From Diacronema lutheri (Eukaryota > Haptophyta > Pavlovophyceae > Pavlovales > Pavlovaceae): a DNA stretch of 64,000 nt. The DNA lies in NCBI GenBank assembly GCA_019448385.1, contig JAGTXO010000048.1, positions 124,001-188,000 on the forward strand, in the 5' to 3' direction. The position numbers and the translations under genes were made by a program. The notes beneath the pieces were generated by a model. The model was not told where the DNA came from, did no database searches, and saw only the letters and a program-made list of their open reading frames with translations. Shown piece by piece: positions 57,210 through 64,000 of the stretch (position 1 is the stretch's first letter; every line of letters begins with the position of its first letter).

Positions 57210-57668
57210 AAGGTGCATCAGCGCGGGCGGTGGGCGCGCGCACAAGTGGCGCGACGCAGGGCTGCACTGACCGCGGCGAGCGGCGCGCGCAGCGCGTAGC
57301 GCGCGACCGCACCCAAAAAAGTTGACGCCGCCAAAGAGCGAGAGGCAGACGACGACGAGGAAGGGGACCATGAGGACGTACAGCGACGAGCCGTCCCATG
57401 CAAGGTTGTCGGGCACGTACTCCGTCTTGGGCGTGCGGTCCGCCTTGTACGCGGCGCGCTTCTCCTTGGTGAGCGGGCCGAGGTCGGTCAGGTCGTACTC
57501 ACCCTTGTCGCTGCCCTTCCCGCCAAAGATCATGCGCGCGCCGAGCGCGCCGTGCCGCGGCGCACGCCTCGCTGCGCACAGCGCCGACGGTGCGCGCGCC
57601 GACGGCGAGCACACGTGCGCCGAGGCCGTCACGACGAACAGGAGCAGCGTGAAGCGAATGATCGCCAT
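57079..57668 (-). CDS. Small membrane protein with plastid-type leader
   Basis: Two exons, 57668-57313 and 57091-57079, about 122 residues. The leader MAIIRFTLLLFVVTASAHVC is a signal peptide, followed by an Arg/Ser/Ala transit-like part (PSARAPSALCAARRAPRHG): the bipartite form used for secondary plastids. The mature part runs IFGGKGSDKGEYDLTDLGPL, KTEYVPDNLAWDGSSLYV, one transmembrane helix (VLMVPFLVVVCLSLFGGV) and NFFGYSE. The last exon is only 13 nt (C TAC TCC GAG TGA). The join (GTGCGG..GTGCGCAG, 221 nt) keeps phase and gives GGVNFFGYSE. The shape resembles small thylakoid photosystem subunits, but I do not recognise the family. It is head to head with the riboflavin kinase gene. Confidence 0.65.
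57099..57207. repeat. Long poly-G tracts with duplicated 26-bp unit inside an intron
   Basis: G runs at about 57116-57151 (one T inside) and 57171-57207 (37 G) are each preceded by ACATTGGCGTTGGCGCGC. On the minus strand they are poly-C tracts just before the acceptor of the small membrane protein gene. Confidence 0.85.
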
Positions 57669-57690
57669 CGTCTTTGGAGGGTGCGGGAAG

Positions 57691-58851
57691 ATGGCGATGC
57701 CACGGATGCGGGCCGTGATCTTCGACCTGGACGGCGTGCTCATCGACTCGGAGCGGCTGATGCACGAGGTGACGGGCGAGATCGTGCGCGAGCATTTTGG
57801 CAAGGCGTACGAGCCCGAGCGCTTTGCGGCGCTCCTCGGCCGCAGCCCGCGCGACGCGGTCGCCGAGCTGATCGCAGCGCTCGAGCTTCCGTGCTCGGTC
57901 GACGAGTACCTCGCGCTCTCGTCGCCGCGCCTCAACGAGAGGTGGGCGAGCGCCGCGCCGATCCCCGGGGCGGCCCGACTCGTGCGCCATCTGCACGCCC
58001 GCGGCGTGCCCATCGCCGTCGCGACGAGCTCGGAGCGGCCGTCGGTCGAGCGCAAGATGGGCGCGCACTCCGACTGGTTTGGGCTCTTCGCCGGGCGGGT
58101 TGTCACATCGACGGACGTGCCGGCGGCGAAGCCGGCGCCCGACGTCTTCCTGCGCGCGTGCTCGCTGCTGCCCGGCGCGATCGAGCCGAGCGAGTGCGTG
58201 GTGATCGAGGACTCGCCCAACGGGATCGTTGCCGCGCGCGCGGCGGGCATGCGCGCGGTCGCGCTCATCTCGGACAGCGTGCCCGTCGCCGCGTACGACG
58301 CGGCTGCGCCTAACGAGCGGCTGCTCTCGCTCTACGACGCCTCGCCGGCGACGTGGGGCCTGCCCCCCTTCGCCGACCGCGTAGCGCGCACTGTACCATG
58401 CGACGCGCCGCTCAGGTTGCGCGGCGAGGTCGTGCGCGGCTTCGGGCGCGGCTCGAAGGAGCTGGGCATCCCGACCGCCAACCTGCCCGCCGACGCGTAC
58501 GCCGAGCTGCTCTGCGCCGCCGCGTGCGGCATCTACCACGGCTGGGCGCAGGTGGACGACGGCCCCGTGCGCAAGATGGTCACGTCGGTCGGTCGCAACC
58601 CGTTCTACGGCAACAAGATGCGCACAGTCGAGCCGCACATCCTGCACGCCTTCTCGGACGACTTTTACGGCGCGACGCTCCGCCTCGTGATCGTCGGCTG
58701 GGTGCGCTCCGAGGCCAACTTTGAGAGCCTCGAAGCGCTCATCCGGGCGATCCGCGCGGACATTGAGACGGCTCGGGTGGCGCTCGATGAGCCCGTCTTC
58801 GCGGCCGCGAGGTCCGACGCCTTCTTCGTGCAGCCCGCAGCGAGCACGTGA
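57691..58851 (+). CDS. Bifunctional HAD phosphatase (FMN hydrolase) / riboflavin kinase
   Basis: 386 residues from ATG 57691 (MAMPRMRAVIFDLDGVLIDS). An upstream in-frame ATG (57658) would overlap the divergent gene's start. Residues ~1-225 are a HAD hydrolase with DLDG nucleophile motif I, VATSSERP motif II, the motif III Lys in AAKPAPDVF, and VVIEDSPNGIVAA motif IV. Residues ~243-386 are a riboflavin kinase: RGEVVRGFGRGSKELGIPTA, then NL, MVTSVGRNPFYGNKMRTVEP. The same fusion is known from plants (FMN/FHy), where it makes FMN from riboflavin and ATP and also hydrolyses FMN back. So this gene should set FMN levels. No clear targeting leader. No introns. Confidence 0.9.
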   Translation: MAMPRMRAVIFDLDGVLIDSERLMHEVTGEIVREHFGKAYEPERFAALLGRSPRDAVAELIAALELPCSVDEYLALSSPRLNERWASAAPIPGAARLVRHLHARGVPIAVATSSERPSVERKMGAHSDWFGLFAGRVVTSTDVPAAKPAPDVFLRACSLLPGAIEPSECVVIEDSPNGIVAARAAGMRAVALISDSVPVAAYDAAAPNERLLSLYDASPATWGLPPFADRVARTVPCDAPLRLRGEVVRGFGRGSKELGIPTANLPADAYAELLCAAACGIYHGWAQVDDGPVRKMVTSVGRNPFYGNKMRTVEPHILHAFSDDFYGATLRLVIVGWVRSEANFESLEALIRAIRADIETARVALDEPVFAAARSDAFFVQPAAST

Positions 58852-58973: not shown

Positions 58974-61900
58974 ATGCCCTCCGACACGGACACCGGGCGC
59001 AAACGCACCGTCGACCGGAGCCAGCCGCCGTCCTTACGGCCGCTCGACGGGTCGCGCGTGCATTTTGACCTCGCCGCGGCCAAGCCTGCACGCACCTGCG
59101 TGGCAATGATGCCGGGGTCCGAGGCCGAGGCCGTCGGAGCCGCGGCCACGCCCGCCTCGTCGCTCGACGCACCGCCCGCGCGCGCGCCGCTGCGCACACC
59201 GCCGCCCCCGCCGCGGGACCCGCGCCCGCGCCCGGCGCGAGGCCTGCCGCTTTCCGCCTCGCCCGCCTCACCGTCTCGTCCCCCGCCGGCGTCAGTAGTA
59301 CCGCCACCGCCGCCGCTTCCGCCGCCTCTGCTTCCGCCGCCTCCGTACGCGCTCGAGCGGTCGCCGTCGAGCCGGATCTACGGGCTGCGCGTCTCGGGTG
59401 CGCTCTCGCGCTTCGTCGCGCTCGCCGCGCTGCTCGTCGCGTTTGTCGGCGTGGTGCGTTGTCCCGCCGGGCGCGAGGGCCTCGCGCGCGTCGACATTGC
59501 CCTACGCTGGCGGTTCGCATCGCTGCACGTGCGTGACGGCCACGAGCCATCCGCGTGGCGCAGGGCGGTGCAGCTCGCCGTGCGCACGGCGCTCGGCGCG
59601 TGCGTCGGCGTGCCGATCGCGGTGGCGACGGGCGGCGACCCGCTCGCGCACATGGAGACATACGCGCGCGCGGCGGACGGCGGCGCGTTCCCATTCCGCG
59701 ACGGCGTCGCGCTCGGCTCCCACGACGAGGTCTCGGCGGTCGTCGGCGGTGCACACCAGCCGCGCCGTCCGACGGTGCTCGCGCATCCGCTGCTCGTTGC
59801 CGACCCGATCGCGCGCGAGTGCATGCGGCGTGACACGCTCATCTTCGTGCCGTCGGGCCCGCAGCACGCCGCGATCCGCGCCGCCGTGCGTGAGGCGGTG
59901 CCGGGTTTTGGGCGGGCGGGGGCTGCGCCCGACTTGCATGCGCCAAGCGGCGAGGGCGGCGGTGGCTGCGCGGGGCAGACCGACGCGCTCGCGGCGTGCG
60001 CGCCGGTGCGATCGGTGCGCGAGCTGCTCGGCGTGGTGCCTGGCCAACCGCTCAACGTTTCGGCCGTGCGGCGGATCGTGCTGAGCACCCTTTTTGAAAG
60101 GATGATGGGCGTTACACCCGCGGAGGGCGTGCTGCAGCAGATGGAGAGCTATTACGCCAGCCTGCCGCTCTGCCTGCTCGGCGTGCGCAAGGAGCGGACG
60201 CGCGAGGCGCGCGAGGCGACCGCCGCCGCCGTGCTCGCCTCGCCCACCGGCGAGCGCGTGCGCGCCATCTGCGCGCGCGACGGGTGCCACGCGACGGCGC
60301 TCGCGCAGCAGCTCGCGGACGGCTTGCTCTTCGCGGGCGGGTACGGCACGACGCACCTCGCGCTGCACACGCTCGAGCGTATCCGTGTCGACCCGTCGCG
60401 CATGGTGCCCCTCTGGCGGCGCGACCCGCTCGCCTTTGCGCACGAGAGCGCGCGGCTCGACCCGTCCGTGCTGTCCGTGACCGCGCTCGCGCCGGCCGGC
60501 GGCGCGGTCGTGCGCACGGCCGACCGCGGCGTGGTGCGGCTCGCGGAGGGCGTGCCGATGCAGCTGCTCCTCTCGCACGCGAACCGCGACCCGGCCGTCT
60601 TTCCCAAGCCGCTCCTCTTCGACCCTACGCGGCCCAACCTGGGCAAGGCGAGGCGCGGCGACGCGCGCGCGCGCGCGCGCGCGCGCGCGCGCTGCGCGCG
60701 CGCCGCCCACGCGACGGCAGCGCGCGCCGCCCCGCCCGCCCGTCGTCCCGCCGCGGTGCGCGCAGGTCCTTTCGTGGAACGGTCTGCTCTCGTCTGTAAG
60801 TCATGGCGTCGCACCACGTGGGTGCATCGGGTACACCCTCTCTGCCGAGATTGTACTGCAGCTCGTGAGCGCCGGCCTGCCCGCCGAGATCGACCCGCCG
60901 TCGCCCGCCGTCGCGAGCGGCGCGCAGCTCGCGGACGAAGCACGGCTCGCGCACGCCACGCGGCAGGCGGGCGGCGCGCCGCCGGACGGCGCGGCGGGCG
61001 ACGGGCGACGGCGCGCCGTGCTGCGCACCGCGTACCTCGCGTGGGGCCTCGCGTGCGTGCTGGGCGGCACGGTGCTTCCGACGCTGCTCGCGAGCTTTGG
61101 CGGCCCCGCGACGAGCTGCGTGTGCATCTTCTGCAACGCGCAGCAGGCGGTGGTCCTCGGTTGGCTCGCGCGCGCGCAGCATCTGCGCGTCGCGGACATA
61201 TACGTGCCCGGTTCGTCCGGCCTCGTCGAGGTGAAGAACGCGCTCGCGCTCGTCGAGTACGCGGGCTACTGCGGCTGCGCGGTCGCGTGGCTACGGCTGT
61301 GGCTCACGCTCAAGCACCACGCGCTCGGATCGGCGCAGGCCGAGTCGCTCGCCGAGAGCGCGGCAGCGTACCGGATGTGCGCGGCGGTGCTCCTCCTCGT
61401 CGGCGCGCTGCACGCGCAGCTCGGCAGCGCGCTCGACGCGGGCGTGTACTACGCGGTGTGCCTCGCCGCCTTCCTGCCCGCGAGCCTGCTCAGCCTCGGC
61501 GCGGCGCTCGTCTTCTGGCGAGACCACGGCAGACATCGCGTTCTCCTCCTCTGCTCGGCGCAAGCCGCCTTCTCCGCGGCCAACCTGCTCTGCGACGCGC
61601 TCGGCCACGGCAGGCCGCTCGATGCGCTCCTCGCGCAGCTCGGCGTCGGCGTCGGTGCGGCGGTCGGCGCGCAGCACGGCGACACGGCGGTTGCGTCCAT
61701 CGTGGCAAGTGTCTTCTCGTGTACGCTGCTCGGTAGCATGTTCGTCTCAGCGGCGGCGATGGACGGTGAGCTGCTGCGCGCCTACGACTACGCCTATCCG
61801 ACGGCTCGCACGCTCCGTACGCTCCTCTCGTTCAAGCAGACGCTGCCGCTGCTGATCGTCGCGCTCACGATCGGCACGCACACACTCGTGCTTCCCCTCC

Positions 61901-64000
61901 TCACCGCCGACGCCGCGCGCTGCTCGAGCGAGCGCGCCGAGCTTGAGACGCACGCCTCGCTCGTCGCGCAATGCGAAGATCCCGCCGCACCCGCCACCGC
62001 CACCGCCGCCGACGCGATCGACGCGCGGCGAGACGGCGGCAGCGTAAGCGGCACGCCGCCATCATTATCATTACTCGGCAGCCCATCGATGGCGGCGCCG
62101 CCATCATTACTCGGCAGCCCATCGATGGCGGCGCGCCTGCCCGCCGGGTGCGCGGCGGACCCGACGGGCGCGCTCGACGCGCACACGCGCCTCTACTTTG
62201 CGCTGATCCGGACGCTCGACGACGGCGTGCAGCCGGACGCGTCGGTTGTTCGGCCGCCAATCGAGACGGGCGGCTCGGCTCTGCCTGCGCTCGACCTGTT
62301 CCCCGGGCTGCGCGTGCCCACCTACGACGAGGACGAGGATCTGGATACGGCCTCGTCCCTTGTCAACCAGCTCTTCGACGCGTACGTGCGCTCGGCGCCC
62401 TTCTTCCCGCTCGCAGACTCGGCTGTCGGCTGGGTGCCAACCGACGCCGCCGCCGCGGCGCTCGACGGCCAGCTGCCGCTCGGTGGCGCGTGGGTGGCGG
62501 GCGGCGGCGCGGGCGGTGGCGGGCGCGCGGCCGCGCACGCCGCGCGGCCGGCGCAGCCGCCCGCCTCGGCTGCGGCTGCGGTCGAGGCGGCCGCGCGCGC
62601 CGTCGACGGCGAGGTGCGTGCGCTGATGGTCCGGCTGTCCGGACGGATGCTGCCCGAGCCGCTTTACGACTATGCGCATGCGCTCGGCGGAGAAGGAGAA
62701 GGAGAAGGAGGGGGGCACCCGCTCCTCACGGATGCGGCCCTCGCGCACATCGCCTTTGGCGGCATTGGCGCACACCTGCCGCGCCGCGCGCGCGCGCCGC
62801 CCGCCGTCGCGCTCGCCGCCGCCGCCGATGGCAGCGATGGCAGCGATGGCGGCGGTGGCGGCGATGGCGGCGGTGGCGGCGATGGCGGCGATGGCAGCGG
62901 TGGCGGCGATGGCGGCGGTGGCGGCGCGTGCGCGGTGCGCGCGGTACCCGAGGGCGCCGCCTTTGAGCTGGACATGTCGTGGATGTGCGCGCTGAGCGTG
63001 CGGCCTGGCTTCGAGCGGTATGGCGCCGTCGCCTTCTTCGACGGCGCGCAGCGCCCGCTCGCCATCTGGTGGAGCCACGCCGGCGTGCTCGTGCGGCCGG
63101 GTGGGGCGCGCCGCGCGCCAACGCGCGCCGCGTGCGCCGCGCGCCGCGCGCCGATCGCGCGGCGCGCGTCACGCGGCCGCGCGCCGTCGCGCTTTGCCGC
63201 GCCGCGCCGCGCTGCGCAGGCGACGCGGCGTGGGCGCACGCCAAGTGGGCGTGGCGCTCGTCCGTGCTGTCGGGCGTGACGCTGCGCGAGCACCTGACGA
63301 TCGTGCACCTCGTCGTCGGCAACGCGCTCGTCACGACCACGCGCGAGCAGCTGCGCGCCTCGCACCCGGTGCGCCGCCTGCTCAAGCCGTTCACGTACCG
63401 CACGGTGGCGGTCAACCGCGGCGCGCGCAACCTGCTCACGTCGGAGCTCTCGCTGCTGCACCGCGCCGTCGCGCTCGACGCGGCCGGTCTGCACGCCGCG
63501 TTCAACGCGTCGATCTCTCTCGCGCGCGCACAGCTCGACCCGCTCTCCGATGCGCTGCTCGGCGCGGCGGAGCCGCCGCTGCGCGTGAGCCCGAGCGCCA
63601 CGCCGTTCGCGCACGACGCGGCCGCGTTCCGTGCAGTCGTGCGCCGCATGGTCAGCGCGTACGTGCTCGAGTATTACGAGAGCGACCAGGCGCTCCTCGA
63701 CGACACGCAGCTGCGCGCCTTCTGGACGGCCCTGCGCGCGTGGTTCGCGCGGCTGCCCGCGCTCGCCGACGGCGGCGAGGTGGTGGAGGGCGCGTGGCCG
63801 CTGCAGCGCACGCGCGCGCGCACGCCGCGCGAGACGCTCGTCGATGCGCTCACGTCGCTCGTCGTGCACGTGACGGCCGTGCACAAGCACGTCGGCCCGG
63901 CGGGCGAGTACGTGCGCGATCCGCGGTACGCGGGCGCGAAGATCCGGCCGGGCGCGGAGGTGGCGGACGTGCAGGCGGCCGTGCAGGTCCTGTCGATCGC
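58974..64000 (+). CDS. Cytochrome P450 (CYP74-like) - polytopic membrane - lipoxygenase fusion (3' partial)
   Basis: Exons 58974-60647, 60766-63100 and 63220 to beyond the window. Introns are GCGAGG..GCGCAG (118 nt) and GTGGGG..GCGCAG (119 nt), both in phase. Start MPSDTDTGRKRTVDRS; then a Pro-rich stretch and an anchor (FVALAALLVAFVGVV). P450 part: E-x-x-R in AHESARLDP (60444), NRDPAVFPKPLLFDPTRPN, VLSWNGLLSSVSHG and the Cys-ligand loop APRGCIGY (Cys codon 60823). The SWNG and I-helix features recall the CYP74 clan (allene oxide/hydroperoxide metabolism). About eight hydrophobic segments follow (61010-61910). The lipoxygenase part has AVAFFDGAQRPLAIWWSHAG, then WAHAKWAWRSS, iron-ligand HxxxxH in REHLTIVH, LRASHPVRRLLKPFTYRTV, VLEYYESDQALLDDTQLRAF and VTAVHKHVG. 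It probably makes a fatty-acid hydroperoxide and rearranges it. Confidence 0.75.
62062..62130 (+). repeat. 36-bp direct duplication in the linker before the lipoxygenase domain
   Basis: The stretch encoding SLLGSPSMAA occurs twice in a row (from about 62065 and 62100) in a low-complexity linker between the last hydrophobic segment and the lipoxygenase part. Confidence 0.8.
62820..62932 (+). repeat. GGC/GAT hexamer minisatellite coding a Gly/Asp/Ser linker
   Basis: Repeats of GATGGC and GGTGGC encode a flexible Gly/Asp/Ser-rich loop inserted in the lipoxygenase domain just before CAVRAVPEGAAFELDM. It resembles the GAT/GGC repeat insert in the Misato gene (39570-39665). Confidence 0.8.

Follow-up and report, generated by a model that had tools for sequence, protein, structure and literature searches.

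A 64,000-nucleotide stretch of the genome of the haptophyte Diacronema lutheri (assembly GCA_019448385.1, contig JAGTXO010000048.1, positions 124,001 to 188,000 of the forward strand; hereafter the window, in whose coordinates all positions are given) carries at its right-hand end a plus-strand gene that joins a cytochrome P450 (P450), a multi-pass membrane region and a lipoxygenase (LOX) domain in one predicted polypeptide; comparison with a second haptophyte sequence confirms that this fusion is real. The predicted product could be a single-chain, membrane-embedded oxylipin synthase, in which a hydroperoxide-handling P450 is fused to a LOX of a clade without the first iron-ligand histidine and Asn694 (hereafter His-minus); we give this interpretation about an even chance. 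Oxylipins play central roles in signalling and in defence. If the interpretation is true, a LOX-P450 fusion would stand beside the known haem dioxygenase-P450 and catalase-like-LOX fusions, in ecologically important haptophytes including the coccolithophore Emiliania huxleyi; the existence of a clade that is missing one of the three iron histidines and the asparagine ligand would also raise the question of what the LOX fold catalyzes without its standard metal site.

Gene Structure and Coding Evidence

Three predicted exons on the plus strand (58974-60647, 60766-63100, and 63220-64214) encode 1,667 amino acids, in the order hydrophobic anchor, P450, six to eight hydrophobic segments, and LOX domain. 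Within the window, the gene has the following features:

58974..60647, plus strand: exon 1, 558 codons; proline-rich N-terminus, hydrophobic anchor, and P450 to just before the cysteine loop
59400-59456, plus strand: hydrophobic anchor within exon 1
60330..60353, plus strand: P450 I-helix, reading FAGGYGTT here as in E. huxleyi; lacks the acid of the acid-alcohol pair
60444..60455, plus strand: ExxR motif ESAR, residues 491-494; aligned in proteins P0001-P0003
60648..60765, plus strand: predicted intron 1, GC-AG, phase 0, 118 nt, 92% G+C
60766..63100, plus strand: exon 2, a single open frame with P450 cysteine loop, multi-pass membrane region, linker, and LOX start
60823..60825, plus strand: codon of the haem cysteine in RGCIGY, residue 578
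61036..61905, plus strand: membrane region by hydropathy, eight peaks (six on a stricter scale)
63101..63219, plus strand: predicted intron 2, GT-AG, phase 1, 119 nt; an E. huxleyi match stops at position 63099
63220..64000, plus strand: exon 3, LOX core (PF00305), running past the window end to the stop at 64214
63276..63278, plus strand: codon for the valine that replaces the first LOX iron-ligand histidine (499-equivalent)
63291..63293, plus strand: histidine equivalent to iron ligand 504
63306-63308, plus strand: 509-equivalent histidine
63882..63896, plus strand: HKHVG, with the histidine equivalent to ligand 690 and glycine replacing Asn694

The original prediction of one polypeptide with P450, membrane, and LOX parts is borne out by the reading frame of exon 2, a 778-codon open stretch that spans the cysteine loop, all membrane segments of the middle region and the beginning of the LOX domain, and by the E. 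huxleyi protein EMIHUDRAFT_228891 (P0002), in which P450, membrane region, and LOX follow each other in the same order; the same architecture is present in this species too. Matches to the E. huxleyi protein cover positions 59610-60647, 61162-61317, 62158-62475, 62965-63099, and 63255-63968, and two of them end at predicted splice donors, one exactly (60647) and one a single base short (63099). Over the whole coding sequence, the G+C content at codon positions 1, 2, and 3 is 0.77, 0.57, and 0.89; of the 16 blocks of 100 codons that make up residues 1-1600, 15 have their lowest value at position 2 and a value at position 3 no smaller than that at position 1, the exceptional block being the glycine-rich segment 1201-1300 (0.86, 0.68, and 0.77). 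This pattern supports coding throughout the gene. The end of the gene, first given as position 64000, lies beyond the window: the last 214 nucleotides are outside it and the stop codon ends at the window-equivalent position 64214, after the terminal residues RLSTSVSI. The two introns had been described as in-phase, which holds for the spliced frame; the genomic frame is shifted by their lengths of 118 and 119 nucleotides.

The P450 Half

The ExxR motif and the cysteine-ligand loop are in register and confirm the P450 motifs initially noticed. Detection of the domain by profile search depends on the profile: the Pfam model PF00067 scores the window protein below its cut-off (17.1 against 22.8 bits, E-value 0.0024), whereas a three-row profile of the family’s P450 part matches solved P450s at 4.8e-9, with CYP150A6 as the best match. 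No CYP74 chain occurs among the 60 best of these 174 matches to solved P450s; a three-row CYP74-type profile matches the window P450 at 5.1e-10, and the CYP74 affiliation of the window P450 is not secure. Within the I-helix, the threonine of the acid-alcohol pair is retained while the acid is absent; the related ENA protein P0003, which reads IAGAAAPC at this place, is likewise without the usual acid. Hydroperoxide rearrangement appears to be the likeliest chemistry of the P450 half, because the I-helix acid is missing and the bacterial partners described below are CYP74-type, one of them fused to a LOX; the absent acid is what the originally proposed hydroperoxide chemistry would lead one to expect.

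The LOX Half and the Membrane Region

As anticipated, the LOX part is recognized by profile search (PF00305, 2.4e-10, 40 bits against a cut-off of 23.6). Its iron site of three histidines (499, 504, and 690) is incomplete: the first place, equivalent to His499 of soybean LOX-1, is occupied by valine, and the other two histidines are present. Valine stands opposite the first iron histidine when the window LOX is aligned to ALOX12-type chains, and likewise when a D. lutheri paralogue is compared with the Pseudomonas 15S-LOX. Four residues after the 690-equivalent histidine, where asparagine, serine, or histidine is expected (position 694), the window protein has glycine; isoleucine occupies the exact C-terminus (STSVSI), as for the carboxylate ligand of LOX. 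The HxxxxH motif cited in the original prediction is present, but it is formed by the second and third histidines counted from WxxAK and not by the usual first iron-ligand pair. With two metal ligands missing, ordinary dioxygenase activity is unlikely for the LOX half; the earlier view that it makes a hydroperoxide in the ordinary way finds no support in that form, as one iron-ligand histidine and the asparagine ligand are missing across the clade in the aligned rows. Because the remaining histidines and the C-terminus are retained, it is likely not dead either.

The hydropathy peaks of the middle region fall between residues 649 and 938, and their number on the less strict scale agrees with the approximately eight hydrophobic segments first proposed. 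The corresponding region in E. huxleyi is homologous, with 30.6% identity across 271 aligned positions and a local score of 251, where 500 shuffles gave at most 73. A Pfam scan of the membrane region gave no credible family, the best match (0.26) being to an unrelated motif. Kinship with the ABA4-like part of P0003, and with the membrane parts of the D. lutheri proteins C47 and C33, was rejected when hhalign found no relation to either.

Relatives in Eukaryotes

Protein searches of approximately 8000 candidates each yielded at least the relatives described here, and more may exist; a search with the family alignment returned the E. huxleyi protein again and no further relative. P0003 consists of an ABA4-like membrane part (residues 45-143) followed by P450 and LOX, and the P450 cysteine is present in the window protein, in P0003, and in the bacterial fusion L078 discussed below. 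The D. lutheri paralogue C82, which corresponds to KFE25_007101 (100% identity over 83% of the query), combines a C2 domain, a P450-like part, and a LOX; its middle part is called P450-like only, as no P450 was found among its PDB matches, and hhalign assigns it 66% probability to the haptophyte profile and to the L055 P450 alike. Other D. lutheri relatives are C33 (membrane-LOX) and C61, and the canonical D. lutheri LOX, C47 (L010:4866-8180, minus strand), has three N-terminal hydrophobic segments. A search for viral relatives confirmed 0 of 16 candidate stretches.

The His-Minus LOX Clade

A scan of prokaryote genomes narrowed 65 candidate stretches to six loci, four of them of the His-minus type (L013-L016) and two with canonical cyanobacterial LOXs. 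With a nine-row LOX profile, matches came from one of 394 genomes in the class of genome G001 and from 63 of 377 genomes in the phylum of genome G003; the weaker matches were mostly other LOXs. The loci examined were the G003 and G001 regions and 19 places in other genomes (17 strong, two weak), to which 13 places were later added that had been picked for long frames or P450 neighbors. The alignment comprises 36 LOX rows, six of which were set aside as belonging to the canonical clade, leaving 30 clade rows with the window included. The first ligand is never histidine in these 30 rows (threonine 11, valine 10, alanine 4, leucine 2, glycine 2, serine 1), whereas the second-ligand histidine is found in all 30, bacterial and eukaryotic, and the 690-equivalent histidine in all 29 rows that cover it. 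The Asn694 place, read by hand in 29 clade rows, holds glycine in 23 and serine, alanine, or glutamine in two each, but asparagine in none; the exact C-terminal position is kept in most clade rows.

In a 34-row tree, from which C61, C33, and L055_5533 were left out as long or fragmentary and to which two L078 rows were added, 27 clade rows split from seven canonical-type rows at 100/99; the window and E. huxleyi sequences form a pair (100/100) whose sister group is a bacterial clade of 11 rows (93/93). A tree that includes C61, C33, and L055_5533 separates six canonical-type rows from 29 others at 100/99 and gives the sister relation 89/94.

Loss of the first histidine, at first considered unique to this clade, is not so. 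In a weaker-scoring comparison set (17 loci and 15 later ones, with rows repeated between loci taken out manually), the first ligand is covered by 34 distinct LOX rows, of which 23 have histidine and 11 do not (glutamine 5, glycine 2, alanine, glutamate, serine, and tyrosine one each); the L078 fusion accounts for one of these, and the other ten lie outside the clade by score, only two of them (L075) being represented in the trees above. Because outside-clade rows without the first histidine keep the asparagine (8 of 8 covered rows among the ten), the double loss of first histidine and Asn694, and not the loss of the first histidine, marks the His-minus clade in these alignments. The ten rows come from loci L044, L045, L048, L052, L075, L077, L080, and L082; their first histidine is replaced by glutamine, glycine, alanine, glutamate, or tyrosine, and some adjoin a LOX gene with the usual histidine. 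An isolated replacement of the first histidine, by tyrosine, is reported for two brown-algal LOXs in PMC5712309, although that paper later describes the five sites as conserved with a single exception.

P450 Neighbors and a Bacterial P450-LOX Fusion

Of the 22 bacterial clade loci, 12 have a P450 no more than 3 kb away (L055, L056, L014, L060-L065, L069, L070, and L072); among these, L056 and L014 are close relatives and not independent. A Pfam scan that covered the neighbor P450s of L055, L056, L065, L069, L070, and L072 placed L056 (two P450s), L065, L069, and L072 above the cut-off. The closest PDB match of the L072 P450 is a CYP74A allene oxide synthase (AOS; 8.3e-28), and the L063 P450 matches CYP74A weakly (6e-4), behind ferruginol synthase (3.7e-4). 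Locus L072 unites a canonical LOX, a CYP74-type P450, and a His-minus LOX within 8 kb; L070 also holds a patatin phospholipase (5.7e-23). The 11-row T-type clade had been considered P450-free, a view overturned by a CYP74-type profile that finds P450 frames beside six of its members (L060-L065).

In genome G717, the region L078:3616-8579 (minus strand) carries a bacterial P450-LOX fusion beside a canonical LOX gene; the fused protein has 928 amino acids from the first likely methionine. Its P450 part is CYP74-type (PDB CYP74A, 3.6e-12), a hydrophobic stretch lies near residue 709 of the frame between the two parts, and the LOX part is matched by the Pseudomonas 15S-LOX (3.3e-7, PDB sequence search) as well as by profile, while Pfam lists the P450 only and not the LOX part. 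This LOX has serine at the first ligand, histidine at the second, and HEVVG, with glycine for Asn694; the canonical LOX is encoded by the next gene. The L078 protein is a further case of the same domain order, although its LOX sits on a long branch (2.5) and we are unsure of its place in the tree. Elsewhere, three LOX-like genes cluster around a P450-like gene in a metagenome-assembled genome from a lake (L055:5533-11169, plus strand), and an open frame beside a His-minus LOX (L058:6821-7792, plus strand) weakly matches the metallopeptidase-type domains PF07737 and PF06167.

Possible Function and Alternative Explanations

In a membrane-embedded oxylipin synthase of this kind, a lipid hydroperoxide would enter from the membrane, most likely made by a canonical LOX (C47 in D. 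lutheri); a separate hydroperoxide supplier is suggested because canonical LOX genes neighbor the L078 and L072 systems. The P450 half, without the O2-activating acid, would rearrange the hydroperoxide with neither O2 nor reductase, in the manner of CYP74 enzymes. Binding the same lipid, the His-minus LOX half would act upstream or downstream of the P450 step, either through a reduced metal site (two histidines and the C-terminal carboxylate) or without metal, and the membrane segments would keep both halves at the site of polyunsaturated acid release. More tentatively, and with somewhat less than even confidence, the LOX half may represent an undescribed LOX-fold class, either two-histidine/one-carboxylate or metal-free, that would act on lipids derived from hydroperoxides, either after a CYP74-type P450 or jointly with it, as a gene pair or fusion in bacteria and as a single membrane-spanning machine in haptophytes.

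Several observations weigh against these proposals. The first histidine is absent in 10 of 33 LOX rows outside the clade, a recurrence that makes us hold the new LOX-fold class less firmly. The E. huxleyi model has no clear P450 cysteine loop, which points to either a model error or a dead P450. An eight-row CYP74-type profile did not list the window P450 at E-values up to 1; the CYP74-like character originally claimed is thus recovered by the three-row profile and not by the larger one, and the 60 best solved matches are other P450s. No P450 lies within 3 kb in ten of the 22 clade loci (L016, L024, L057-L059, L066-L068, L071, and L073); three of these (L016, L024, and L067) lie on contigs that are short or truncated, and L057 has a P450 piece at 5.4 kb. 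Among the neighbors that were counted, the L070 P450 remains below the Pfam cut-off (18.1 of 22.8 bits) and that of L055 has no match, and the P450 profiles were built partly from the same neighbors that they detect. Finally, at least three of 20 control genomes with weaker-scoring LOXs (G653, G657, and G735) have a P450 within 5 kb, in a control that differs from the clade survey in detection method and distance (5 kb against 3 kb); of the 17 control genomes in which the LOX was checked, 14 have the first-ligand histidine in at least one row. P450 adjacency as a hallmark of the clade is weakened accordingly; since control genomes with other LOXs also show P450 neighbors, LOX-P450 pairing is general, and perhaps denser for the His-minus clade. 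Structure prediction is of no help, as the AlphaFold model of the E. huxleyi protein (six rows) reached a mean pLDDT (predicted local distance difference test) of 35.7 and was left unused.

The LOX half could instead, as originally proposed, be an active dioxygenase that passes its hydroperoxide to the fused P450, with iron held by the two remaining histidines, the C-terminal carboxylate, and perhaps the 509-equivalent histidine. The LOX-fold motifs, the C-terminal SVSI, and the clear conservation of two ligand histidines are compatible with such an enzyme; catalase-LOX and dioxygenase-P450 fusions provide one-chain precedents, and the LOXs that keep Asn694 while also missing the first histidine imply that this position may be dispensable. 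We nevertheless consider it unlikely, given that the first iron histidine is missing in every clade row together with the replacement of Asn694, and that the canonical LOX beside the CYP74-type P450 and His-minus LOX of L078 and L072 would be redundant. It is more doubtful still that the LOX half is a non-catalytic remnant, retained to serve the P450 as a scaffold for lipid binding or membrane docking: the loss of two metal-site ligands and the presence of the P450 cysteine in the window protein, P0003, and L078 would fit, yet a plain scaffold would not need the two ligand histidines, kept wherever the clade rows cover them, or the mostly kept C-terminal position.

That two or three adjacent genes were read through in an annotation artefact appears highly improbable. 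Long open frames are common at 76% G+C, intron 1 has a GC donor, and a protein database search found no D. lutheri entry for the gene among proteins of 917-2917 amino acids, so that its annotation may differ or be missing altogether. Against this stand the single annotated E. huxleyi protein, with the same order and with matches that end at both exon borders, the linkage of cysteine loop, membrane part, and LOX start by exon 2 alone, and the continuity of the codon-position G+C pattern across the joins; the E. huxleyi match and the exon borders led us to reject the two-gene reading.

Comparison with Known Systems

Catalase-related AOS-LOX fusions have an N-terminal haem part and a canonical LOX, and to our knowledge no multi-pass membrane region; the dioxygenase of the fungal dioxygenase-P450 fusions is N-terminal, and the LOX2 of the plant LOX2-AOS-AOC2 complex is a canonical LOX. 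The catalase-related AOS-LOX proteins of corals and cyanobacteria (solved chain 3dy5) share with the window protein the combination of a haem enzyme and a LOX in one chain; their haem part is catalase-like, in contrast to the P450 of the window protein, which has no catalase family among its Pfam matches. The fungal fusions (LDS, AOS, and EAS types) similarly join a fatty acid-oxygenating enzyme to a P450, although their dioxygenase is a haem enzyme and not a LOX. The CYP74 clan (AOS, HPL, DES, and EAS) comprises the P450s of the LOX cascade; the bacterial partners L072 and L078 match CYP74A, whereas the window P450 is weakly and inconsistently similar to the clan. According to a review (PMC10813956), CYP74 enzymes work without O2 and without redox partners. 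The plant LOX2-AOS-AOC2 complex at the plastid envelope, as outlined in PMC6411374, resembles the window protein in that a LOX and a CYP74 are held together at a membrane for channelling; its components are separate proteins, in contrast to the single chain of the window. A LOX-P450 fusion was not found in the parts of the open-licence PMC literature that were searched, subscription papers being outside this scope, and the words lipoxygenase and P450 are absent from the main text of the D. lutheri NIVA-4/92 assembly paper (PMC8379373).

Neighboring Genes

Upstream of the fusion gene, at window positions 57271-58851 on the plus strand, lies a gene for a HAD phosphatase joined to a riboflavin kinase (PF00702 and PF01687); the downstream gene, on the opposite strand (L007:6310-7191, minus strand), encodes a longin/synaptobrevin SNARE.

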